Shown here piece by piece: positions 24,103 to 36,646 of a stretch of DNA of 36,646 bases. The position numbers and the translations under genes were made by a program. This DNA comes from Candidatus Omnitrophota bacterium (lineage in GTDB: Bacteria; Omnitrophota; Gorgyraeia; Zapsychrales; JANLHA01): NCBI GenBank assembly GCA_029560465.1, contig JAKQKX010000064.1, positions 1-36,646 of the forward strand, written 5' to 3'. Position 1 is the first letter of the stretch, and the number at the start of each line of letters is the position of its first letter. Under the pieces are notes generated by a model that ran no database searches, was not told where the DNA came from, and worked only from the letters and a program-made list of their open reading frames with translations.

Positions 24103-25938
<1,836 letters not shown>

Positions 25939-26007
25939 GATTTTAATCTCCGCGGGAATTCCCCCTCTTGTGAAGGCACGGGAATCTACTTTTGTTAGAA
26001 ATCTTTG

Positions 26008-27840
26008 TTAAGATGGGGCGGGGACCACGAACGATTCTGGGCAGGTCTCCAGGAAACGGCACAGTTTTTCCTTCTGGGTGTGCAGTTCTTTTTCGATGGC
26101 GGCCGCCTGTGACCACCATCCTCGGAAACGGTCGGTTTTGACCAAATTGAGGTAATATTCAATCCCTTCACAAAGGTTGGCTTTGATGTCTTCGAGGTTA
26201 AGCTCATCAGCGCTGATATGAAAAAGCAGGCTTTTCTGAACGGTTTTAATAAAATACTTAACGTAGATTTCCGATTCCTGAACAAACATGTGCGGCCGGG
26301 TTACGGTGGTTTCAAAAGACTGACGGCCGTAAATACGGTCCAGCATTTCACGGAGGGTGAGGATTTTGGAATAATATTTCAGGGTTGGCCCTGGGCAGAT
26401 CGCCGGGTTTAATTCTGACGAAGAAGAGATGCCATACTTCTTGAGCGCGCCAGCACCCAGATCATGGCAGAGGCAGGATTTATCAACCAAAGCGTCATAT
26501 TGCCGTTGATACTCATCAGGCGTGAGGCCCAGAGTTTTAAGCTGGTCAATTTTCAATTTCTGATAGGTCCGGGAGGCCGTACAGATCGGCTTGTCTGTAA
26601 ATTCCGTGTTGTTAGCCAGATGCCCTCTTGGGCAAGGGCTACCCGGTCGGTTATCGGCGATCCGCTGATTTTTCCTGCGCTCGGAAGGGCTGGTGAAAAG
26701 ATTGTTGAAAGGGACCCCCAAGGGAGAAACATCACTCAGGTCCAGCTCCTTGTTCCCGGCGTTCTTCAGAAGCCCCAGGGTTTCCTCATCAACCTCTGTC
26801 ACTTCCGGGCATAAAAGAAAAGGGGTGCCCCATCCGGTGGCATCGAGGTCATAATAATCTTTTATAAATTGGTCTTCAGCATGCGTCCCGATTCCGCCCT
26901 GGGCGGTGATATGGACTGGAAGCGGATTTGAAAAGGTGACGTAGTTTTTTATTTTTAGGGCTTCCGAACAAATTTTATGAAGATTATTGATGAGTTCCTG
27001 CTTGCGGTTTTTAAATTCTTCAAGAATGGGTCCCAGCATCTGCCCGGACCCGACAAAAGCGTGCCCACCACAGTTTAACCCTGATTCAAAGCGGTATTCA
27101 GAAACCCACAGCCCTTTCTTCGCGAGAAATTTCCCCTGGATTAAAGACGAGCGGTAATCGCTGACTTTTAAAATGATCCTTTTTTTGATATATCCGGTTT
27201 TATCCGCGTAAAAGTCTTTGAACTCACTGATATAATTATAGAGGCGCCGGTTAAACCCTGCGGAGAACACGATCGCCGCGTGCAGCGTGCTTTTCGCGAA
27301 GCCTCTTAAAGCCGCCAGCGCGTCCGAATATTCCTGGGGAAGAAGTTCCTGAGTTTTTGGATCATAATTCGACCGGTCCAGTTTGGTCATGATATTGACA
27401 TCAATCCGTCCGATTTCCATGGAGTCCCGCAATTGTTCCTGCAGGTCTTTTTTAAGGGCCGTGTCCGTGGTGTCGAGCATGGCCCGGTATTTCTTTTTAA
27501 GAGGGGAGGACTCCGGCAGCAGTTCAAAATACTTCGTGATTTCAGAGCCGGTCTCAAAAGCGGATTGGCGGATCTCCTGAAACTGCTGTTTGACGATTTT
27601 GTCGATCAGGTTCAGGTAAGCGGTAATGCGCCGGGCCCGGGAATCCTCGTCGTTTTTATTGATGGCCTGGTAGCTTTCTCCGAATTTCTCGCAGTAGTGT
27701 TTGCGCATTTCTTCAATTAAGGTGTCGTCAACCAGGGAAATAACCGAAGAGATGCCATATTTGGCGATGCGGATGGGGGTGTCGATGGTAAACCCGGTGC
27801 CCATGACAGGAACAAATGTTTTATGGCCTACGTAATTCAT
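26008..27840 (-). CDS. Large conserved-looking protein of unknown function with a cysteine-rich middle
   Basis: 610 residues from the preferred ATG. I cannot assign a family. N-terminal VPVMGTGFTIDTP and YGISSVISLVDD, later RFESGLNCGGHAF, and then HITAQGGIGTHAEDQF with GWGTPFLLCPE loosely recall flavin-dependent TIM-barrel enzymes such as nitronate monooxygenases; this is an impression only. Five cysteines cluster at about 403 (CPRGH), 420 (CTASR), 456 and 458 (SCLCHD) and 482 (CPGP), which could bind a metal or Fe-S cluster. ATG at 27840 is preceded by a TATAAT box at 27863-27868. A TTG at 27894 with AAGGAG would add 18 residues forming a hydrophobic N-terminus. It converges with thiC and diverges from the cas genes. 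Confidence 0.75.
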   Translation of the reverse strand: MNYVGHKTFVPVMGTGFTIDTPIRIAKYGISSVISLVDDTLIEEMRKHYCEKFGESYQAINKNDEDSRARRITAYLNLIDKIVKQQFQEIRQSAFETGSEITKYFELLPESSPLKKKYRAMLDTTDTALKKDLQEQLRDSMEIGRIDVNIMTKLDRSNYDPKTQELLPQEYSDALAALRGFAKSTLHAAIVFSAGFNRRLYNYISEFKDFYADKTGYIKKRIILKVSDYRSSLIQGKFLAKKGLWVSEYRFESGLNCGGHAFVGSGQMLGPILEEFKNRKQELINNLHKICSEALKIKNYVTFSNPLPVHITAQGGIGTHAEDQFIKDYYDLDATGWGTPFLLCPEVTEVDEETLGLLKNAGNKELDLSDVSPLGVPFNNLFTSPSERRKNQRIADNRPGSPCPRGHLANNTEFTDKPICTASRTYQKLKIDQLKTLGLTPDEYQRQYDALVDKSCLCHDLGAGALKKYGISSSSELNPAICPGPTLKYYSKILTLREMLDRIYGRQSFETTVTRPHMFVQESEIYVKYFIKTVQKSLLFHISADELNLEDIKANLCEGIEYYLNLVKTDRFRGWWSQAAAIEKELHTQKEKLCRFLETCPESFVVPAPS

Positions 27841-27944
27841 ATTTAAAAATATTAGTACAGCTATTATAAGAAAGCAAGAGATATATTGAAACAATTTACT
27901 CCTTAGCCGGGTGGATGGAGAACGTTTTAGCCGCCTTCACCCAA

Positions 27945-28034
27945 AACCACGGGCATACCCCAAGTTCCGCGCCCATGGGCGTGGAGCTGCCCGATGAGAG
28001 CCGTGGTTCATTGACTCCAGAGCTTGCTCCGGGG
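27945..28034. other. Structured non-coding segment between the unknown gene and the cas locus
   Basis: AACCACGG (27945-27952) pairs with CCGTGGTT (28001-28008). Between them lies a near-perfect palindrome centred on GCCCATGGGC (27967-27984), and GGGCA (27951-27955) can pair with TGCCC (27988-27992) in an alternative fold. A small GAGC/GCTC hairpin follows at 28017-28034. The segment is GC-rich between AT-rich flanks. The strand is unclear: it could be a leader of the minus-strand gene, a small RNA, or an end of a decayed mobile element. No gene is seen in 27895-28129. Confidence 0.4.
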
Positions 28035-28129
28035 TTTATACTTCTGATTTTAACTCTTTTAATTTGTAAAATTTAGGTCTATTATGAATGATATTAATTC
28101 ACATCCTCTTTCAATAATGGATTAACCTC

Positions 28130-28489
28130 ATGTGCCCACCTGCAGAATATATCGCTCATGCTGCCCAAGCGGCCGATGCCTCAGAATGGAAAATTCATGC
28201 TTTAGAAGATCACCTGCGGAGCGTTGCTGAACAAGCGGGGGAATTCGCGGAGAAGTTTGGCAGCAGTGATTGGGCGGCATTGTGCGGTTTGTGGCACGAT
28301 TTGGGCAAATTCCTTCCGGGGTGGCAGGCCTATATCCGCCGGCAGACGGGGTATGACGAAGACGCGCATATAGAAAACTATCCCGGCCGTCCTAACCACA
28401 GCTCTGCGGGCGCGGCATTAGCTATGCAGCGTTTTAATAAATCCCCTAGAGAAATGGGACGTTCCGATTATATAGTTACTCATTTTTAA
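28130..28489 (+). pseudogene. Remnant of a Cas3 HD-nuclease domain (N-terminal fragment)
   Basis: 119 residues. The HD-domain order is visible: HALEDHLRSVAEQAGEFAEKF, the HD pair in GLWHDLGKFLPGWQAYI, and HSSAGAALAMQRF. It then departs from the family near 28438 and soon stops, lacking the GHHGG motif and the whole helicase. It is clearly homologous to the N-terminus of the intact Cas3 that begins 4 nt later. Its base composition (about 52-57% in sampled stretches) is like cas4-cas1-cas2, not like the adjoining cas3 (about 37-38% at its start). A functional stand-alone HD protein is unlikely because a metal-binding motif is missing. Confidence 0.75.
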
Positions 28490-28493
28490 TAAC

Positions 28494-30683
28494 ATGAATG
28501 ATTTAAACAGTATTTTTGCTCATACTCCTCCAAAAGACTTGCCAAACTGCTGGCATGTTTTGGAAGATCATTTGAAAGAGGTTGCAAAACTTGCTAAAGG
28601 GCTTGCGGATAAATTTGATGCTGGAAATTTAGCATACTGTATCGGGTTATGGCATGACTTGGGGAAAGTTAACCCCGAATTTCAAGATTACCTCAAGGCA
28701 TGTGTGCAAAATAAACGATACGAGAAAGTCCCTCATTCAATATGGGGCGCTGTTTTAGCATATTGGCTGATTAGGCAAAACAAAGAAGATGACCGTTGGC
28801 AAGAAATTGCTTTGGTGATTGCCGGTCATCATGGCGGCATGGATCATCCAGGTTCACTCTCACAGAAACTTGAACAGCGCATTCAAAACAATTCGATGAT
28901 GTTTAATAAGATCGTTGAGTATGCAAAACAACTCCCATCTCCCCCTAGAATTCAATTACCAGAATTGAACCGTACTCAGCGGGAATTGTTTATCAGAATG
29001 GTTTTCTCTGCTCTTGTTGATGCTGACTATCTGAACACTGAAAAACATTTCAACGAAAAGCAGTACATTTTGAGGCAAAATCAAATTCGGGTTGAAACTC
29101 TTTGGAGCATATTCGATGCAGAGCAAAGGCGATTTATCAATACTGCCGATTCAGAGTCGAAGGTCAATAAGGTTCGCAAGGAAGCTTATGATTTATGCGA
29201 TAAAGCAGCAGCAGGAAAGCCAGGCGTCTATCGGCTCACGGTACCAACCGGCGGCGGCAAGACCAGAAGCAGCCTGGCTTTTGCGTTAAAACATGCTGTT
29301 GAAAACAAGATGGACAGGGTTATTGTTGCAATCCCTTATACGAGCATCATTGATCAGACGGCAACGGAATACAGAAAGATTCTTGGGGCTGACGCAGTGC
29401 TTGAACATCACAGTCAAGTCAGTGTTCCTGCCGATGAGGGTCAGGATATGGGGCAAATTTCATCAAGACTCGCCATTGAGAATTGGGACGCGCCTCTTGT
29501 TGTGACTACAACGGTTCAGCTTTTTGAAAGCCTATTTTCATGTAAGCCGGGGAAGGTGCGTAAACTTCACAATCTCTGCCGGAGTGTTATTGTAATAGAC
29601 GAAGTTCAGTCCCTGCCACCGGAATTATTGACTCCGACACTTGATATATTAAAGGAGCTTGTCAAGCGATACAGTATATCCGTTGTACTTTGTACCGCAA
29701 CCCAGCCCGCATTTGAAGACAGCCATTATCTACAACCGTTTCAAGGAGTGCAAGTCCATGAAATAGTGCCTAAAGAAATTTATAAAGGGCATTTCAAAAA
29801 ACTTGAACGAATAAAATATTCCAGAAAAAAAGACCCGATCTCCTGGCAGGAATTGGCTAAAGAAACCTCAGAGGAAAAGCAAATAATGGTTGTTCTGAAC
29901 ACCCGCAAAGATGCCCTGTCACTTATTGAGTCTCTTGCTGACACGGAGAATATTTATCATTTATCCACTCTTCTTTGTGGGATACATAGAAGGCAAATAC
30001 TCAGAGAGGTCAAGAGTAGACTTAAACATGGATTGCCTGTCAGACTTATCAGCACTCAGGTTATTGAAGCAGGTGTAGATATTGACTTCCCGGTAGTTTA
30101 TCGCGCAACCGGACCGCTCGACCGAATTGTTCAAGCTGCAGGACGGTGTAATAGAGAGGGCAAACTTCCTCAAGAGCAGCCCGGACGTGTTGTTATTTTT
30201 GAACCAGCGGAGGGCCACGCTCCGAGAGGCCCATATAAAACAGGAATTGAAAAGGCAAAGCTTTTATTAGCGCAACATGATATTGCAGAGCTGCACAATC
30301 CCGAACTATATCGGATGTATTTTGAGAAACTGTTTACTGATGTTAATACCGACAGAAAAAAGATACAAGCTTACAGAGAGGTTCTTGATTATCCAACGGT
30401 TGACGCCGAGTACCGGTTAATAGAAGAAAATACAGTCCCTGTTTTGATTGATTGTGATTCATCGGCCCGGAGACTCAAAGAGTGGAAGAATCGGCCTTGC
30501 AGGAGAACGTGGCAAAGATTACAGCCTTTATTAGTAAATATGTTTGACTATGAGGTTCAAAAGCTTAAAGCAGAAGGATGGCTCGAACCCATATCGGAAG
30601 GGTTATATCTCTCAAGAGGGATGTATGACAAGCTGAAAGGATTAGTTCCGGCGATTTATGATCCAAGCGATCTTATTCAATAG
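28494..30683 (+). CDS. cas3: Type I-C CRISPR-associated helicase/nuclease Cas3
   Basis: 729 residues, full length for type I-C. The HD nuclease domain has HVLEDH (21-26), WHDLGK (His 54, Asp 55), and AGHHGGMDH (His 112, 113). The superfamily 2 helicase has Walker A TGGGKT (252-257), Walker B VIDEVQ (368-372, DEVQ rather than DEAH/DECH), CTATQP, and motif VI in IVQAAGRCNREG. It is recruited by Cascade to unwind and degrade the non-target strand. ATG at 28494 has no clear ribosome-binding site and lies 4 nt after the HD remnant stop, which fits an acquired junction. cas5c follows after 10 nt. Confidence 0.95.
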   Translation: MNDLNSIFAHTPPKDLPNCWHVLEDHLKEVAKLAKGLADKFDAGNLAYCIGLWHDLGKVNPEFQDYLKACVQNKRYEKVPHSIWGAVLAYWLIRQNKEDDRWQEIALVIAGHHGGMDHPGSLSQKLEQRIQNNSMMFNKIVEYAKQLPSPPRIQLPELNRTQRELFIRMVFSALVDADYLNTEKHFNEKQYILRQNQIRVETLWSIFDAEQRRFINTADSESKVNKVRKEAYDLCDKAAAGKPGVYRLTVPTGGGKTRSSLAFALKHAVENKMDRVIVAIPYTSIIDQTATEYRKILGADAVLEHHSQVSVPADEGQDMGQISSRLAIENWDAPLVVTTTVQLFESLFSCKPGKVRKLHNLCRSVIVIDEVQSLPPELLTPTLDILKELVKRYSISVVLCTATQPAFEDSHYLQPFQGVQVHEIVPKEIYKGHFKKLERIKYSRKKDPISWQELAKETSEEKQIMVVLNTRKDALSLIESLADTENIYHLSTLLCGIHRRQILREVKSRLKHGLPVRLISTQVIEAGVDIDFPVVYRATGPLDRIVQAAGRCNREGKLPQEQPGRVVIFEPAEGHAPRGPYKTGIEKAKLLLAQHDIAELHNPELYRMYFEKLFTDVNTDRKKIQAYREVLDYPTVDAEYRLIEENTVPVLIDCDSSARRLKEWKNRPCRRTWQRLQPLLVNMFDYEVQKLKAEGWLEPISEGLYLSRGMYDKLKGLVPAIYDPSDLIQ

Positions 30684-30693
30684 GGGGTGAAAT

Positions 30694-31407
30694 ATGAGTA
30701 AAGCGACATTTTTTATCAAAGCAGGCGGTGATTATGCCTGCTTTACAAATCCGGGCTTAAAGGTTGAGCGATGTACCTATCCTGTTATGACTCCTGCGGC
30801 GGCCAGAGGGATTTTGGAAGCAATTTACTGGAAGCCTCAGTTCAGATGGGAAATCAGAGAGATCAAAGTGCTTAAGCCTATCAAACAAATCAGCATCATG
30901 AGGAATGAGATAGAGGATCGTCAGAATAAAGAGCCAATTATTATTGAGCGCAAGCGGCAGCAACGAACAAGCCTAATCTTAAAAGATGTCGAGTATGTCA
31001 TCACAGCAGACCTTGTGCTTAAAGAAGGAATCAATAACATTGAGGGCTACATTAGTCAGTTCGCTCGAAAGTTTGAAAATGGCCAATGCCATCATACTCC
31101 ATATCTTGGCACCCGTGAATTTGCAGCATGGTTTGAATCTGCAACCGGCGATGAAGAAGCGGAACCCAATGCAAAAATAGAAAAACTGTCCATTGGGCAG
31201 ATGCTTTTTGACAGCGCGTATATAGAAGACGCTGAGCGCAAGGAGATAGATTTTCATCTTCATAGCCATACGCATCCGGACGATAAACGTGTTGCACAAG
31301 GTTATCAGAGCGCTATTTATTTTGACGCTGTGGTTGAAAATAACATTCTCAAAATTCCTCCTGAAAAATATTTTGAACTCTATGAAAAGGAGGGTGTCCA
31401 TGTTTAA
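30694..31407 (+). CDS. cas5c: Cas5c, pre-crRNA processing subunit of type I-C Cascade
   Basis: 237 residues. The N-terminus (FIKAGGDYACFTNPGLKVERCTYPVMTPAAARGILEAIYW) is characteristic of the Cas5c/Csd family. In type I-C systems, which lack Cas6, Cas5c itself cleaves the repeat and then caps the 5' handle of the crRNA. No cas6 gene is present here, consistent with that role. GGGGGTG precedes the ATG. The stop overlaps the cas8c start by 8 nt. Confidence 0.95.
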   Translation: MSKATFFIKAGGDYACFTNPGLKVERCTYPVMTPAAARGILEAIYWKPQFRWEIREIKVLKPIKQISIMRNEIEDRQNKEPIIIERKRQQRTSLILKDVEYVITADLVLKEGINNIEGYISQFARKFENGQCHHTPYLGTREFAAWFESATGDEEAEPNAKIEKLSIGQMLFDSAYIEDAERKEIDFHLHSHTHPDDKRVAQGYQSAIYFDAVVENNILKIPPEKYFELYEKEGVHV

Positions 31408-33313
31408 GGAGATCATTGAGCTTGGAAAGAGACTTGAATCGGAGGGGGAACTTGTACCCACCGGCTTTTATTCGTATTCCCAACCAATCAAATGGGTTGT
31501 TCATATATTAAGCACTTTTCCGCTGAAGTGTTATATCTCAGAAGAAGATATCAAAAAACCTCGCCCAATGAGTGGGAGAAGAAACAGGACAGATTTGGCT
31601 CATCCAATTGTTGATGAGGCTGGTTATGTTTTGGGGACAGTACATAAAAAAGGCGGTGGTGAGGATGAAGATGCCGAGAAAAAACAAACAGCATATAAGT
31701 TGCTCTTAGAAAAGATAATTCAAAGCATCGATGATGACAATGAACTGCGGCAAGCAGTTTTAACTATTAAGGAGATTTTGCAAGAAAAGATTCTTAAATC
31801 TGATGCTCGATTCAGTGATGTTTTAAGTAAAGACTGGGTTTCTTTTGTGTTGGAATATGGTCAGTTAGCAGGCACACATTTATTTGAGCATCCCGCGATA
31901 AAAGCCTTTTGGGTTAATGAATTACAGGAGAATTCGGAGAAAACCAAGAATCGCGCCTATCAGATAAAAGGTGTATGTTCTATATGTGGAAAGGTTAGAG
32001 TGTTAACAAAACGTATTCCTGGGATAAAACTTTTTAAGACAAACCCATTACATTCTTACAATAAAGATTCTTTCGTATCTTTTTTCACTGGAAGAGAGAT
32101 TTATAAGAAAAGTCACCTTGGCCAGTGCTTGCTCTGTGGAGATACTATAGCAAGAACTACAAATTATCTCCGGGCAAGTCCATTACATCACAAGATAATC
32201 GTGCAGGTTTACAAGGACGCCAATAAGAAGAAAACTGACATGGATTCTGCCAAGAACCAGCTTGGCCTATTCTGGCTAAAGGATGAACAGCCTGTAAAAG
32301 CTGGTGAAGCTATACTTGATCCGGCAGAGTTATTGAAAAACGTAAGCCTTGTCATGGACCGAACCGATCCAGCCGGGAAAAAAGCTCCGCCGCCTGACCT
32401 TATGCAATTGGATAACATGTTGAGCACGCCATGGACAGGCAGGGATGCGTCAGTCAATATTGCGAATAATGCATTCTACCTTCTCACTCTGTCGCCCAAC
32501 AAAGGACGAATTGCGGTCAGGGACTGGTTGGATATCTCACTCGATAAATTGCAGCAGAATCTCAAAACATTTCTTGATGCGCAACGTATTATTGACCCGG
32601 TGGGGAAAGAGAGACGATGCTTCGGGATACCTGAAATTCTGAAAGCAGTGGAGGCATCAAATATATCTAAAGAAGAGTATAAGGCTGTTGAAATAGGCAA
32701 TCCCAATATAAGCCGTCAGCTATTGCGAACGGCTTATTTAGGGGAGCCGCCTCCGTCAGTTCTTCTTGAAGCGGCAGTGATGTGCATGAGGAATCCGAAA
32801 ATCTTTGATGATAAGAAAAGAACTACTCACCATGTACTAATGGCAACTTTAAAAATGCTTTTAACTCATAAAAAGGAGGGCATGAAAGAGATGGAAACGC
32901 TTGATACAAAACGAAACACTATAGGGTATCTTTGCGGACAGCTTCTATCAATCCTTGAAGAAGCGCAGTTGAGAGCGGCGCGATGGAGAATCAATACTAC
33001 CCTTGTCGAAAGGTTTTATGGCTCAGCCTCATCTGCGCCGATGTCGGTTTTCGGCACTCTTGTAAGGAGAGCTACTACAGACCACTTTTCCAAAATACGG
33101 AAACAGCAACTTGGATATAAAGATTTAGAAGCGAGGATAGAATCTGTTACAACCGCAATTGACCAGACAGGCGGCTATCCTAAAACTCTTTCACTGAAAG
33201 AACAGGCTGAGTTTTCTCTCGGCTTTTACCACCAACGCGCAAAGTTTAGCGAAAATAGGAATATCAACAAACAGAATGATAAAAAGGAGGAGGGCAGCAA
33301 TGAGCAACAATAA
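31400..33313 (+). CDS. cas8c: Cas8c large subunit of type I-C Cascade (Csd1 family)
   Basis: 637 residues. N-terminal MFKEIIELGKRLESEGELVPTGFYS and later LLTLSPNKGRIAVRDW are Csd1-like. Two CxxC pairs, CSICGK and CLLCGD (about 195 and 240), suggest a zinc-binding loop. Cas8c recognises the PAM and contacts Cas3. I chose ATG at 31400 because AAGGAGGG lies just upstream; the frame is open further upstream within cas5c. The C-terminal part, from codon 495, is probably also translated separately as Cas11c. The 3' end overlaps the cas7c start by 14 nt. Confidence 0.93.
   Translation: MFKEIIELGKRLESEGELVPTGFYSYSQPIKWVVHILSTFPLKCYISEEDIKKPRPMSGRRNRTDLAHPIVDEAGYVLGTVHKKGGGEDEDAEKKQTAYKLLLEKIIQSIDDDNELRQAVLTIKEILQEKILKSDARFSDVLSKDWVSFVLEYGQLAGTHLFEHPAIKAFWVNELQENSEKTKNRAYQIKGVCSICGKVRVLTKRIPGIKLFKTNPLHSYNKDSFVSFFTGREIYKKSHLGQCLLCGDTIARTTNYLRASPLHHKIIVQVYKDANKKKTDMDSAKNQLGLFWLKDEQPVKAGEAILDPAELLKNVSLVMDRTDPAGKKAPPPDLMQLDNMLSTPWTGRDASVNIANNAFYLLTLSPNKGRIAVRDWLDISLDKLQQNLKTFLDAQRIIDPVGKERRCFGIPEILKAVEASNISKEEYKAVEIGNPNISRQLLRTAYLGEPPPSVLLEAAVMCMRNPKIFDDKKRTTHHVLMATLKMLLTHKKEGMKEMETLDTKRNTIGYLCGQLLSILEEAQLRAARWRINTTLVERFYGSASSAPMSVFGTLVRRATTDHFSKIRKQQLGYKDLEARIESVTTAIDQTGGYPKTLSLKEQAEFSLGFYHQRAKFSENRNINKQNDKKEEGSNEQQ
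32882..33313 (+). CDS. cas11c: Probable Cas11c small subunit from an internal start within cas8c
   Basis: Inside cas8c, AAAAGGAGGG at 32871-32880 precedes in-frame ATG codons at 32882 (MKEMETLDTKRN) and 32891. Independent translation of a small subunit from the 3' part of cas8 is established for type I-C systems. The product would be about 140 residues and helical, with LLSILEEAQLRAARW. Spacing is short for the first ATG and long for the second, so the exact start is undecided. Confidence 0.6.
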   Translation: MKEMETLDTKRNTIGYLCGQLLSILEEAQLRAARWRINTTLVERFYGSASSAPMSVFGTLVRRATTDHFSKIRKQQLGYKDLEARIESVTTAIDQTGGYPKTLSLKEQAEFSLGFYHQRAKFSENRNINKQNDKKEEGSNEQQ

Positions 33314-34421
33314 TATTCATACTGATCCTGCGAGGAGACATGATTTTGTCCTGGTGTTTGAAGTAGAAAGCGGAAATCCAAACGGCGACCCGGATGCTGG
33401 CAATCTCCCGCGTGTCGATCCCGAAACCGGGCATGGCATTGTTACTGATGTGTGTCTTAAAAGGAAGGTTAGGGATTATTTACAAATAACAAAAGGGATT
33501 CCTATTTTTATTCAGAGCGAGACAGCTTTAAACCGACTCATTTCAGACGCGGCGAAAGAACTTAATATTGATCTCTCGATATGCACTATCGATGATGAAG
33601 GAGTGATCGAATGGTTTCAAACGAACACTCCGGAGAATTTTGAATTGGACGGTAACGAGCTTACATATTCTGGTGATCTCAAGGACATTAAGAAAGCATT
33701 CGCTGCTATCAATGACAAGGAAATGAAGAAGAAACTCGATGCGATTGCAAAAAAGTTGTCTGGCAAAAAAACATTATCAAATGAAGATCGTGCAAGGACT
33801 CAAAGAAGGATGATCGACAAGTATTTCGACATTAAAATGTTTGGAGCAGTTCTTTCGACCGGTATTAATGCTGGTCAAGTTCGTGGGCCGGTGCAATTAA
33901 CATTTGCAAAGTCAGTCGATCACATTTTCAGACTTGATAATGCCATAACGCGTAAAGCCGTTACAAAAGAAGAAGACAAGAAAAGGAAAGAAACCGAAAT
34001 GGCCCGCAAGCCAATAGTGCCTTATGCTTTATATGTGGCTCATGGCTTTTATAATCCGTACTTTGCATTAGAGAAGAAGGAAAAACCTGAGGACCCAGAT
34101 AAATTTAAGGTATCTAAAGACGACCTTGCCAATCTTTGGGAAGCATTGGAATGGATGTTTAACAACGACACTGCTGCAGCAAGGGGACGCATGGCAACAA
34201 GAGGATTGTATGTGTTTTCACACGACAGCAAAAGAGGCAACGAGTATGCTCATAAGCTGTTTGACCGAATAAAGATATGTCTTGGCGATGAGAAACGCCA
34301 GAAAGATGAATCGGCAGAACAGTTTTGTGATTATAAAATAGACATTATTGAAGATGGCCTTAAAGAAAAGAATGTCACATTAACCAAGTTAATAGATGAC
34401 AGAAAGAAAGAAAAAGCCTGA
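33300..34421 (+). CDS. cas7c: Cas7c backbone subunit of type I-C Cascade (Csd2 family)
   Basis: 373 residues. The N-terminal FEVESGNPNGDPDAGNLPRVD is the hallmark of the Csh2/Csd2 group of Cas7, with GIVTDVCLKRKVRDY next and the FGAVLSTGINAGQVRGPVQ segment at mid-protein. Multiple copies line the crRNA spacer. I chose ATG at 33300, with AAGGAGGAGG upstream; an open start 8 codons earlier is less likely. A Lys/Glu-rich C-terminal tail (KLIDDRKKEKA) ends the gene. cas4 begins after 14 nt, where composition shifts to higher GC. Confidence 0.95.
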   Translation: MSNNNIHTDPARRHDFVLVFEVESGNPNGDPDAGNLPRVDPETGHGIVTDVCLKRKVRDYLQITKGIPIFIQSETALNRLISDAAKELNIDLSICTIDDEGVIEWFQTNTPENFELDGNELTYSGDLKDIKKAFAAINDKEMKKKLDAIAKKLSGKKTLSNEDRARTQRRMIDKYFDIKMFGAVLSTGINAGQVRGPVQLTFAKSVDHIFRLDNAITRKAVTKEEDKKRKETEMARKPIVPYALYVAHGFYNPYFALEKKEKPEDPDKFKVSKDDLANLWEALEWMFNNDTAAARGRMATRGLYVFSHDSKRGNEYAHKLFDRIKICLGDEKRQKDESAEQFCDYKIDIIEDGLKEKNVTLTKLIDDRKKEKA

Positions 34422-34435
34422 TTTACTTTAAACCT

Positions 34436-35068
34436 ATGTATTCCGATGAAGAATTTCTTCCATTATCCGCGCTACAGCACTTTGTTTATTGCCCGCGGCA
34501 GTGCGCGCTGATCCACATCGAGCAGGTGTGGGTGGAAAACATGTTTACGGCCGAAGGCAGGATCATGCATGATAAAGTGCATGAAGAGAGCGTGGAATAC
34601 CGGGACGGTGTCAAAATAGAGCGCGGTATGTTTCTTCGCTCGTTGGAACTGGGCCTCATCGGTAAGGCGGACGTGGTGGAATTCCATAGCGCGGCCGGCG
34701 GGGCTTGGCGTCCTTTCCCGGTAGAGTATAAAAGGGGAAAGCCCAAAAAGGACTCTTGCGACATGGTCCAGTTGTGCGCTCAGGCCTTCTGCCTGGAGGA
34801 AATGCTTAACGTAAAAATAGAAAAGGGTGCCTTGTATTATGGCCGCACGCGGCACCGGCATGAAGTCGTTTTTGATGAAGAGCTAAGGGCTGTTACCCGG
34901 GACACCGCATCCCGGGTGCGGGCGTTTCTTGAAAAGGGGGAAACACCCCTTTCGGAATATTCGCCCAAGTGCAAGGCCTGCTCGATGCTTGCGGTATGCT
35001 TGCCGAAAGTCATGGGCCGGCATCAGTCTGTAACCTGTTACCTGGAGGAGCAACTGAAAGACCCGTGA
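34436..35068 (+). CDS. cas4: Cas4 RecB-like nuclease
   Basis: 210 residues. The Fe-S cysteines are Cys 19 (FVYCPRQC) and Cys 179, 182 and 188 (KCKACSMLAVC). RecB-type nuclease motifs are GKADVVEFH (76-84), VEYKRGKPK (96-104) and QLCAQAF (112-118). Cas4 trims prespacers and selects the PAM during adaptation. No ribosome-binding site is obvious before ATG at 34436. The stop TGA overlaps the cas1 start as GTGA. Confidence 0.95.
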   Translation: MYSDEEFLPLSALQHFVYCPRQCALIHIEQVWVENMFTAEGRIMHDKVHEESVEYRDGVKIERGMFLRSLELGLIGKADVVEFHSAAGGAWRPFPVEYKRGKPKKDSCDMVQLCAQAFCLEEMLNVKIEKGALYYGRTRHRHEVVFDEELRAVTRDTASRVRAFLEKGETPLSEYSPKCKACSMLAVCLPKVMGRHQSVTCYLEEQLKDP

Positions 35069-36096
35069 AGAAATATTTAAATACTTTATATGTTACCACC
35101 CAGGGGGCCTATCTGTCGAAAGAGGGGGAAACGGTGGTTGTGAAGGTGGAAGATGAGAAACGCCTGCAAATACCTGTTCATACTCTCGACGGCATAGTGT
35201 GTTTCGGACAGGTGGGCATGAGCCCGTTCTTGATGGGGCACTGCGCTGAGAACAACGTGGCCGTGAGTTTCTTAACCGAGTATGGCCGGTTTTTGGCGAG
35301 CCTGCGAGGGAAGGTCTGCGGTAATGTGCTGCTTCGCCGGCAGCAGTACCGCAAAGCGGACGATCCGGGCTTTTCGGCAGAGGTGGCGCGCAGCATTGTC
35401 CGGGGCAAGATTGCGAATGCCCGGGCTGTATTGCAGCGAAGGTTGAGGGACCACCCCGAAAAAGATAATTCTCCTGATGTCCAACAGGCCTCGGGGCGGT
35501 TAAGTTATTCTTTGGACAAGTTGTCCCGGCCGCTTGACCTGGATATGATCCGGGGCATCGAAGGCGAATGCGCGCACACGTATTTTAGTGTTTTTAATCA
35601 TCTGATCGTCGCGCAAAAAAATGATTTTGTTTTTGAGGAGCGCAACCGCCGGCCGCCGCTGGACCGGGTGAATTGTCTTTTATCTTTTATTTATACTCTG
35701 GTTATGCATGATGTGCGTTCCGCGCTCGAAACCGTAGGGCTCGATCCTGCCGTTGGGTTTTTGCATCGCGATCGGCCCGGCCGGCCGGGGTTGGCTTTGG
35801 ATATGATCGAGGAATTCCGGCCGTTTATGGCGGACAGGTTAGTCTTGTCTTTGATTAACCGGGAACAGGTGCAGGCCAAGGGCTTCATACAATCGGAATC
35901 CCGTGCCGTTACAATGGATGACGATACCCGAAAAAGCATTCTTGTGGCCTATCAGAAAAGAAAGCAGGAAGAAATAACCCATCCCTATTTGCAGGAAACC
36001 GTGCCGGTAGGGCTATTGTTTTACATTCAGGCCCTGCTCATGGCGCGGTTTCTTCGGGAGGATATAGACGGCTATCCCGTATTTATCTGGAAATAA
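35065..36096 (+). CDS. cas1: Cas1 integrase
   Basis: 343 residues, type I-C size. The N-terminal domain starts KKYLNTLYVTTQGAYLSKEG. Catalytic residues are seen as Glu in GIEGECAHTYFSVFNH, His in VGFLHRDRPGRPGLALD, and the acidic residues in LDMIEEFRPFMAD. Cas1 with Cas2 inserts new spacers at the leader end of the array. The start is GTG at 35065, overlapping the cas4 stop; this is where homology begins, and the frame open to 34969 is a shadow within cas4. Confidence 0.95.
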   Translation: MKKYLNTLYVTTQGAYLSKEGETVVVKVEDEKRLQIPVHTLDGIVCFGQVGMSPFLMGHCAENNVAVSFLTEYGRFLASLRGKVCGNVLLRRQQYRKADDPGFSAEVARSIVRGKIANARAVLQRRLRDHPEKDNSPDVQQASGRLSYSLDKLSRPLDLDMIRGIEGECAHTYFSVFNHLIVAQKNDFVFEERNRRPPLDRVNCLLSFIYTLVMHDVRSALETVGLDPAVGFLHRDRPGRPGLALDMIEEFRPFMADRLVLSLINREQVQAKGFIQSESRAVTMDDDTRKSILVAYQKRKQEEITHPYLQETVPVGLLFYIQALLMARFLREDIDGYPVFIWK

Positions 36097-36107
36097 GAAG
36101 GTGGACC

Positions 36108-36398
36108 ATGTTGGTGTTGATCAGTTATGATGTGAAGATGGACGACAGCGGTGGCCCCCGGCGGTTACGTCGGGTGGCAAAGGCCTGCAAAAATTTTGGC
36201 CAGCGGGTGCAGTACTCTGTCTTTGAGTGCAACGTAGACCCGGCCCAATGGGCCAAATTGCGCCAGCAATTGATCGACGAAATTGATTTGAAAAAAGACA
36301 GTCTCCGGTTTTATTTTTTAGGTTCCAACTGGAGACGGCGGGTTGAGCACATGGGGGCTAAGGAACCTGTTGATTTGGAAGGGCCGCTTGTCGCGTAG
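36108..36398 (+). CDS. cas2: Cas2 adaptation subunit
   Basis: 96 residues. N-terminal LVLISYDVKMDD carries the conserved Asp 8, with RRLRRVAKACKNFGQRVQYSVFEC next and DSLRFYFLGSNW at the second half. Cas2 forms the scaffold between two Cas1 dimers. AAGAAGGTGG precedes the ATG, 11 nt after cas1. The leader follows directly. Confidence 0.95.
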   Translation: MLVLISYDVKMDDSGGPRRLRRVAKACKNFGQRVQYSVFECNVDPAQWAKLRQQLIDEIDLKKDSLRFYFLGSNWRRRVEHMGAKEPVDLEGPLVA

Positions 36399-36585
36399 TA
36401 TGCTGCCGTGCGAACCATGAGAGTGTGTGCTGTATGCGGGAGGTTCGCAGGGGAGATATGTTCTTTGACAACAATAATTTATTTCAATCCTATATATAAG
36501 TTGTTTGTTTGATCGCAGCAAATCCGCAAAGGTTCGCGGAAATCGAAGTTTTAGTTGTTGGTGTTGTAACAGATAGAAGAAGACA
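36399..36585 (+). promoter_or_regulatory. CRISPR leader
   Basis: 187 nt between cas2 and the first repeat. It holds TTGACA (36465-36470) followed by a TATATA stretch at 36491 (20-nt spacing, weak as a promoter). GCGAACC (36410-36416) is inverted relative to GGTTCGC at 36442-36448, which recurs at 36531-36537. A TCCGC/GCGGA hairpin lies at 36523-36540. These may guide integration or drive array transcription. Confidence 0.7.
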
Positions 36586-36646
36586 GTCGCGCCCTTCGCG
36601 GGCGCGTGGATTGAAACGGGATTAACCCGACGAGATAATCAAGGTT
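36586..36646 (+). CRISPR. Start of a type I-C CRISPR array: first repeat and part of spacer 1
   Basis: The 32-nt repeat (36586-36617) begins GTCGCGCCC and ends GTGGATTGAAAC, with a GCGCCC/GGGCGC stem; this matches the known type I-C repeat form. Spacer 1 begins at 36618 and runs off the window after 29 nt. Repetition itself is not visible here, so the call rests on repeat identity and position after cas2. Confidence 0.9.

Follow-up and report, generated by a model that had tools for sequence, protein, structure and literature searches.

What does a gene of some 600 codons do when its product belongs to no recognizable family and its nearest neighbors on one side are the genes of a CRISPR-Cas system? 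The question was raised by the open reading frame (ORF) at positions 26008-27894 on the minus strand of a 36,646-nt stretch of Candidatus Omnitrophota DNA, which represents one entire contig (C22) of its genome and is referred to here as the window. A first-pass annotation had recognized no family for the encoded cysteine-rich protein, had gained a faint flavoenzyme impression from its glycine-rich segments, and had left undecided whether its place beside the CRISPR locus was chance or functional. Our analysis confirmed that the ORF is a real gene and a member of a widespread but unnamed bacterial protein family. We tentatively read its product as a cytosolic flavo-iron-sulfur reductase, in which a barrel that would bind flavin mononucleotide (FMN) is joined to cysteines that would hold an iron-sulfur cluster, and which would serve the nitrosative and low-oxygen response in Bacteroidota and a related redox protection in Omnitrophota; we put this reading just short of an even chance.

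Results

The window protein matched nothing above chance level in Pfam (best E 0.034) or NCBIfam (best E 0.055), both far under the curated cut-offs, and it gave zero matches in PADLOC at E up to 1, while ten family members gave zero matches in PHROGs at E up to 0.01. PDB sequences returned chance matches with the window protein and with a 48-row family profile, mostly apolipoprotein on the C-terminal helices, so the first-pass failure to recognize a family was borne out. Across 48 members, the best Pfam E value was 0.0034, and 16 matched NF001645, an NCBIfam model named 'hypothetical protein' (best E 8.2e-5), the window protein not being among them. The family was not found, by protein or by alignment, in plasmid and phage collections (tblastn) or in viral contigs, and we noticed no publication on it in the open-access collection searched.

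Relatives were present in 49 of the 54 genomes of the window's own order, its own genome included, and the matches outside that genome were 50-61% identical to the window protein. A 97-genome sample of the phylum Omnitrophota held seven carriers, comprising every one of the five genomes from the window's order and 2 of the remaining 92. In Bacteroidota, the phylum of Pedobacter G146, 112 of 296 genomes matched, the full-length matches at 42-53% identity; one of the 112 was a 107-residue stretch alone, and 111 genomes entered the co-occurrence counts given below. These were the two phyla sampled for spread; beyond them, coverage consisted of a close-relative pattern scan of named genomes, which found nine loci, eight of them in Candidatus Omnitrophota and one in Pedobacter agri. 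A FastTree phylogeny of 115 copies grouped 45 of the 49 Omnitrophota leaves with one further leaf (support 0.95). Judged from these sequences, the gene is conserved far beyond chance.

The ORF is open throughout and could yield 628 residues from a TTG or 610 from an internal ATG at 27840. The latter form, 26008-27840 on the minus strand with the stop codon included, was picked via relatives, and residues are numbered from its ATG. Methionine was found 1-18 residues (median 5) ahead of an HxFHIPVMG-like conserved segment in 94 of 101 relatives, a count that arises partly by construction, the nearest methionine having been taken for each relative. An in-frame stop lay no more than 19 codons 5' of the chosen ATG in 26 of 38 Omnitrophota relatives; a Shine-Dalgarno-like tetramer preceded the ATG in just 12 of the 38, and the missing Shine-Dalgarno sequence is therefore no argument against the ATG start. 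The optional 18-codon hydrophobic extension at 27841-27894 (minus strand) begins with the TTG and has AAGGAG 4 bases 5' of it; it is not common to the relatives and is probably read-through upstream sequence. The TTG start that the first-pass annotation had offered may thus still be used in this genome, given the upstream AAGGAG, but the membrane location that the hydrophobic segment implied found no support among relatives, and the 610-residue, cytosolic form is the most likely one.

Conservation was counted over 100 aligned sequences after two rows, a masked fragment and a duplicate, had been dropped. C257, C403, C420, C456, and C458 were cysteine in all 100 rows and C482 in 99, the remaining row carrying X, and the window protein's remaining cysteines were variable. 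Five of the six are those that had been singled out at first pass (C403 in CPRGH, C420 in CTASR, C456 and C458 in SCLCHD, C482 in CPGP), and the sixth, C257, directly precedes a GGH motif. The glycine motif QGG proved equally invariant: Q314, G315, and G316 were conserved in 100 of 100 rows and G318 in 98, as were E252, S253, G254, N256, C257, G258, G259, H260, and F262 in all 100, and H6, G336, and W337 were likewise invariant where present. The segment ESGLNCGGHAF (residues 252-262; 27055-27087, minus strand) is a predicted FMN-site loop with His260 as candidate catalytic residue, by analogy with H182 of FabX, and QGGIGT (residues 314-319; 26884-26901, minus strand) is a predicted FMN phosphate loop that pairs with the GGI of nitronate monooxygenase (NMO) in a non-significant profile alignment. 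Further along, residues 403-482 (26395-26634, minus strand) constitute a candidate iron-sulfur site, proposed from the invariance of C403, C420, C456, C458, and C482 in a region modeled mostly with low confidence, and residues 516-600 (26041-26295, minus strand) are predicted by AlphaFold2 to form long helices, weakly conserved and with few invariant columns. That the flavin-type loops and the cysteines are invariant together suggests a single functional enzyme carrying a pair of cofactor sites.

An AlphaFold2 model built from ten sequences, the window protein and nine relatives, had a predicted local distance difference test (pLDDT) score of 63.2 and a predicted template modeling score of 0.54, with mostly good confidence at residues 21-310. 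Taken together with Foldseek and VIA-align, it predicts that residues 1-345 (26806-27840, minus strand) form an FMN-binding triosephosphate isomerase (TIM) barrel of the NMO superfamily. Over residues 13-346, VIA-align placed PfaD 4z9r at the top (Z 13.6, root-mean-square deviation (rmsd) 3.2, 206 residues aligned), ahead of PfaD 6lkc (Z 13.2), the MlnA enoyl reductase (13.1), and FabX 7e1q (12.7); Foldseek returned two matches under E 0.001, both to the DfnA enoyl reductase (best 2.2e-4), and then PfaD at 3e-3. The best reading of the model is an FMN-type TIM barrel with PfaD and FabX nearest, which lends the flavoenzyme impression of the first-pass annotation modest support. For the cysteine region alone (residues 346-610), a second AlphaFold2 run reached a pLDDT of 58, and Foldseek found nothing under E 0.49, a result that says nothing about novelty of fold.

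Among known enzymes, FabX of Helicobacter pylori (7e1q), a dehydrogenase/isomerase, offers a parallel. The parts of its structural report that concern us describe an NMO-family TIM barrel followed by a C-terminal [4Fe-4S] subdomain on C300, C304, C308, and C320, with H182 as catalytic residue, and call the cluster absent from other characterized family members (PMC8626469). The window protein resembles FabX in its modeled barrel (Z 12.7), in having cysteines after the barrel, and, by analogy, in a GGH histidine that is a candidate counterpart of H182. It differs in length (610 against 363 residues), in gene neighbors, and in cysteine spacing, which is C-x16-C-x35-C-x1-C-x23-C in place of C-x3-C-x3-C-x11-C, so that the four-cysteine [4Fe-4S] motif of FabX was not found. 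We do not class the protein as FabX, although it may couple FMN to a cluster in a similar way. PfaD and the trans-acyltransferase (trans-AT) polyketide enoyl reductases (TIGR02814; 4z9r, 6lkc, 4cw5, 4z38) match the modeled barrel (VIA-align Z 11.9-13.6), but the window family has an added cysteine-rich region and no synthase genes were seen nearby. At E up to 1 the 48 members together matched 20 NCBIfam families, and TIGR02814 was none of these; it exceeded its cut-off in none of 198 Bacteroidota genomes, and none of the matches listed in that phylum lay at the positions of this gene.

In Bacteroidota, the genomic company of the family was distinctive in part of the loci. RIC, the ScdA/YtfE di-iron protein, called here by TIGR03652 over its cut-off, lay within 1 kb of the gene in 13 of the 74 genomes holding both, and in 12 of these 13 it was directly upstream on the same strand, with 58-195 nt between match ends. 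Six loci (L211, L213-L217) showed the order Rrf2 regulator, RIC, family gene, and three cysteines were common to all ten aligned Rrf2 proteins of that cluster (Pfam-identified). The RIC-linked copies sit in denitrification islands; around them were nosZ, nosD, nosL, an FGE-like gene, SCO1, HemN, and a multicopper oxidase taken as nirK. A chance estimate of 6e-28 for the RIC adjacency was set aside because the adjacent copies fall in one clade. Outside this clade, at four further positions in the tree, L127, L225, and L149 have nos genes close by, L104, L118, L126, and L132 have cbb3 oxidase genes, and in L222 an Rrf2 gene immediately precedes the family copy. In seven genomes or more, counted by eye among the matches listed, CcoN lay within 8 kb of the gene, and CcoI-type ATPase genes were also found near it, while many other Bacteroidota loci were without any recurrent neighbor. 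A similar company, an Rrf2-family regulator and RIC, is kept by the hybrid cluster protein Hcp (TIGR01703), an NO reductase, but homology is not credible: one of the 48 members reached E 0.072 with TIGR01703 and one reached 0.038 with NF003658, a hydroxylamine reductase model, the window protein being neither. Unnamed membrane-type proteins also recurred near the gene, at L104:7994-9235 (plus strand), L211:6569-7834 (minus strand), and L215:7540-7974 (minus strand); the first had no NCBIfam match at 1e-10, and the other two had no Pfam match at 1e-5.

Across the 296 Bacteroidota genomes, counted without control for phylogeny, 74 held both the gene and RIC, 37 the gene only, 33 RIC only, and 152 neither (odds ratio 9.2). 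The corresponding numbers were 82, 29, 62, and 123 for CcoN (over its cut-off) and 1, 110, 66, and 119 for Hcp. The contrast with Hcp is likely to reflect a split between groups, most genomes with Hcp being of 2-3 Mb, and among the 229 Hcp-free genomes the association with RIC persisted (73, 37, 33, and 86; odds ratio 5.1).

One further observation bears on the supply of electrons. Genome G017 carries a second family copy at L048:4204-7707 (minus strand), in a neighborhood unlike the usual Omnitrophota site described below, and this copy is part of a single 1168-residue frame that continues into Flavodoxin_1, FAD_binding_1, and NAD_binding_1 domains. The fusion suggests that electrons from pyridine nucleotides reach the family protein via a flavodoxin-type domain.

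The Omnitrophota gene usually sits between bioB and thiC. Among 40 loci of the order, of which 38 have a downstream ORF, thiC was a convergent neighbor no more than three ORFs away on the 3' side in 33, and bioB a divergent one at the same maximum distance on the 5' side in 31; genes of TrxB-like, 2-oxoacid:ferredoxin oxidoreductase, UbiE-type, and IscA-type (Fe-S_biosyn) proteins also recurred nearby. In the window, thiC occupies 24109-25938 on the plus strand, named through its cluster, a member of which matches Pfam ThiC_Rad_SAM. The bioB side is taken by a type I-C cas operon (cas3, cas5c, cas8c, cas7c, cas4, cas1, and cas2 by PADLOC profiles), and a bioB-like gene (55% identity) lies on contig C102 of the same genome, which fits a displacement of bioB by the operon. 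Homologues of the window's seven Cas proteins were absent from all 119 other loci (114 distinct), searched over flanks mostly of 6-8 kb with some contigs shorter, other Cas types not having been sought. The functional link to CRISPR or defense, and with it a recurrent cas neighborhood in other genomes, did not hold up; the adjacency is most likely chance.

A promoter scan of the stretch between the gene and the cas operon found none. Upstream of the family genes, the motif TTGAC-N4-GTCAA (3 of 41 loci against 0.2 expected) was set aside for its scattered positions. Directly before the full cas3, positions 28130-28489 (plus strand) encode a 119-residue Cas3 HD-domain fragment with 42% identity over 76 residues to the N-terminal part of cas3, which looks like the truncated start of a second cas3. 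The contig ends right after cas2 (36398-36646), and a search of 25900-36646 turned up no repeat as long as 24 bases; the CRISPR array was probably lost at the assembly break. Elsewhere in the window, self-BLAST revealed direct and inverted repeats of 54-100 bp with 91-98% identity at 779-2245.

Discussion

The conservation, the gene neighborhoods, the co-occurrence, and the fusion were observed directly; FMN, an iron-sulfur cluster, a path for electrons, and a role in stress are inferred, the function from genomic company and fold. The FMN-binding TIM barrel would span residues 1-345 and belong to the NMO/FabK/PfaD/FabX superfamily, His260 being the candidate for its active-site acid-base, and a cluster would be held by C403, C420, C456 or C458, and C482. 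A flavodoxin, a diflavin reductase, or a ferredoxin-type donor would reduce this cluster, which would hand electrons to the FMN in the barrel, where a substrate held near H260 would be reduced; this order is proposed because of the diflavin fusion, the ferredoxin-linked neighbors, and the analogy with FabX. In Bacteroidota the enzyme may act in the response to nitric oxide and low oxygen, in one clade alongside RIC, and in Omnitrophota it may have a related redox-protective task beside other iron-sulfur enzymes. The leading candidate reactions are reduction of a nitrogen oxide or nitro compound and re-reduction of RIC. YtfE is described, in the sections of the work that deal with its reduction, as requiring an external reductant, for which the authors propose ferredoxin with an associated reductase (PMC9052748), and re-reduction of RIC is therefore an attractive candidate. 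The same source, in its treatment of regulation, reports that in Escherichia coli NsrR controls YtfE together with Hcp and its partner reductase Hcr (PMC9052748), and this makes a nitrogen-oxide substrate the other attractive candidate. A review of RIC, in the part that discusses its role, favors iron donation for the repair of iron-sulfur proteins (PMC9268430).

Several observations weigh against this reading. Model confidence fell below 50 at residues 254-267 (the GGH loop), at 315-319 (the QGGIGT loop), and over most of 337-512, and the best Foldseek rows have TM-scores near 0.2 with rmsd 17-19. The fold comparison with NMO-like barrels that had been proposed at first pass came out divided: FabK/NMO types (PF03060) did match, at Z 10.3-10.9, but IMPDH, at up to 10.5, and yeast fatty acid synthase, at 11.2, scored in the same range, so that the step from a TIM barrel to the NMO superfamily has a narrow margin in this model. 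PF03060 itself misses the window protein (no row at E up to 1), matches once in its genome, on another contig and not over the cut-off, and matches four times in Pedobacter G146, never at this gene. In hhalign, the 48-row alignment scored 24.7 against 28 NMO-type ORFs (two of 30 excluded by length; L168 perhaps in a wrong frame) and 18.5 and 18.2 against thiC and bioB controls; the N-terminal part of a larger alignment scored 20.98 against 18.5 and 17.7 for the controls, but this score was equaled or surpassed by 7 of 100 column-shuffled profiles (best 27.9) and so lacks significance. The weak alignment puts the GGH and GGI loops in register, pairing GGH with GGH, QGGIGT with AGGI, and GTPFLL with GTAFLV. 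On the genomic side, all 13 copies next to RIC belong to a single supported clade (18 leaves), are at least 60% identical to one another, and may represent one event kept by descent, to be counted as one lineage; the wider co-occurrence, as said, takes no account of phylogeny. RIC exceeded its cut-off in none of the 54 genomes of the Omnitrophota order, with weak partial matches in eight, and therefore cannot be the general partner; its close companionship is confined to a single clade within Bacteroidota. The diflavin fusion is a single gene, no other ORF in the loci searched having matched the reductase part of L048, and FNR/CRP boxes were not consistently enriched upstream of 41 Omnitrophota and 52 Bacteroidota loci relative to plain shuffles.

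The same evidence can be arranged differently. The protein might be an iron-sulfur scaffold, carrier, or repair partner of RIC, bearing a transferable cluster on its cysteines while the barrel is regulatory or vestigial; it adjoins RIC, and genes for iron-sulfur enzymes or assembly are close by (IscA-type, bioB, and thiC in Omnitrophota; NifS-like and NifU-like genes, named by eye, near L028). We nonetheless hold this to be unlikely, since H260, C257, and the glycine loops show the same invariance as the cysteines, a pattern more in keeping with an active flavin site than with a scaffold. An acyl-chain flavoenzyme, either an enoyl reductase or a FabX-like dehydrogenase/isomerase for unsaturated fatty acids, would agree with the nearest folds by model (PfaD, the trans-AT enoyl reductases, FabX, FabK), with FabX as a solved relative that has both FMN and a [4Fe-4S] cluster (PMC8626469, in the parts cited above), and with a genome that has no PF03060 match over the cut-off. 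What makes it quite unlikely is that the tight motif of FabX was not seen in the window protein, that the named neighbors are respiratory, nitrosative-stress, and vitamin genes, and that no fatty-acid synthesis gene appears among the named recurrent neighbor clusters, not every cluster being annotated.

A nitronate- or nitroalkane-detoxifying enzyme of the classical NMO kind appears improbable. The modeled superfamily fold, the nitrosative-stress neighborhood, and the GGH motif speak for it (G258, G259, and H260 in 100 of 100 rows, a catalytic role for the histidine being assigned by analogy only); the missing PF03060 match speaks against it, as does the cysteine domain, which classical NMOs are not known to have. 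Membership in a CRISPR-Cas or other defense system, for which the adjoining type I-C operon could be cited, is scarcely credible and already refuted as far as Cas neighbors tell: the other loci held no homologue of the operon's proteins, the usual neighbor on that side is bioB, and PADLOC gave no match, other defense genes not having been systematically sought.

Within the favored reading of a flavo-iron-sulfur reductase, a narrower proposal is that this unnamed FMN and iron-sulfur class makes up a nitric oxide-defense module together with RIC and an NsrR-like regulator in Hcp-less Bacteroidota lineages, where it would either act as a reductase that handles nitric oxide or nitrite or fill the vacant role of electron donor to RIC; we regard this as doubtful, though with a real chance of being right. 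The account of core members in a comparative study of nitrogen-oxide regulons comprises hcp, hmp, dnrN, nnrS, norVW, nir, nor, and nos, and that account contains no gene resembling this one (PMC1274295).

The family thus amounts to a 600-residue protein, present in 112 of 296 Bacteroidota genomes and in 49 of 54 genomes of an Omnitrophota order, that no Pfam or NCBIfam model covers in the copies searched. If our reading is true, it would be a second cluster-bearing branch of the NMO superfamily besides FabX, and a flavo-iron-sulfur protein whose gene directly follows the RIC gene would be a candidate for the reductant of RIC/YtfE.

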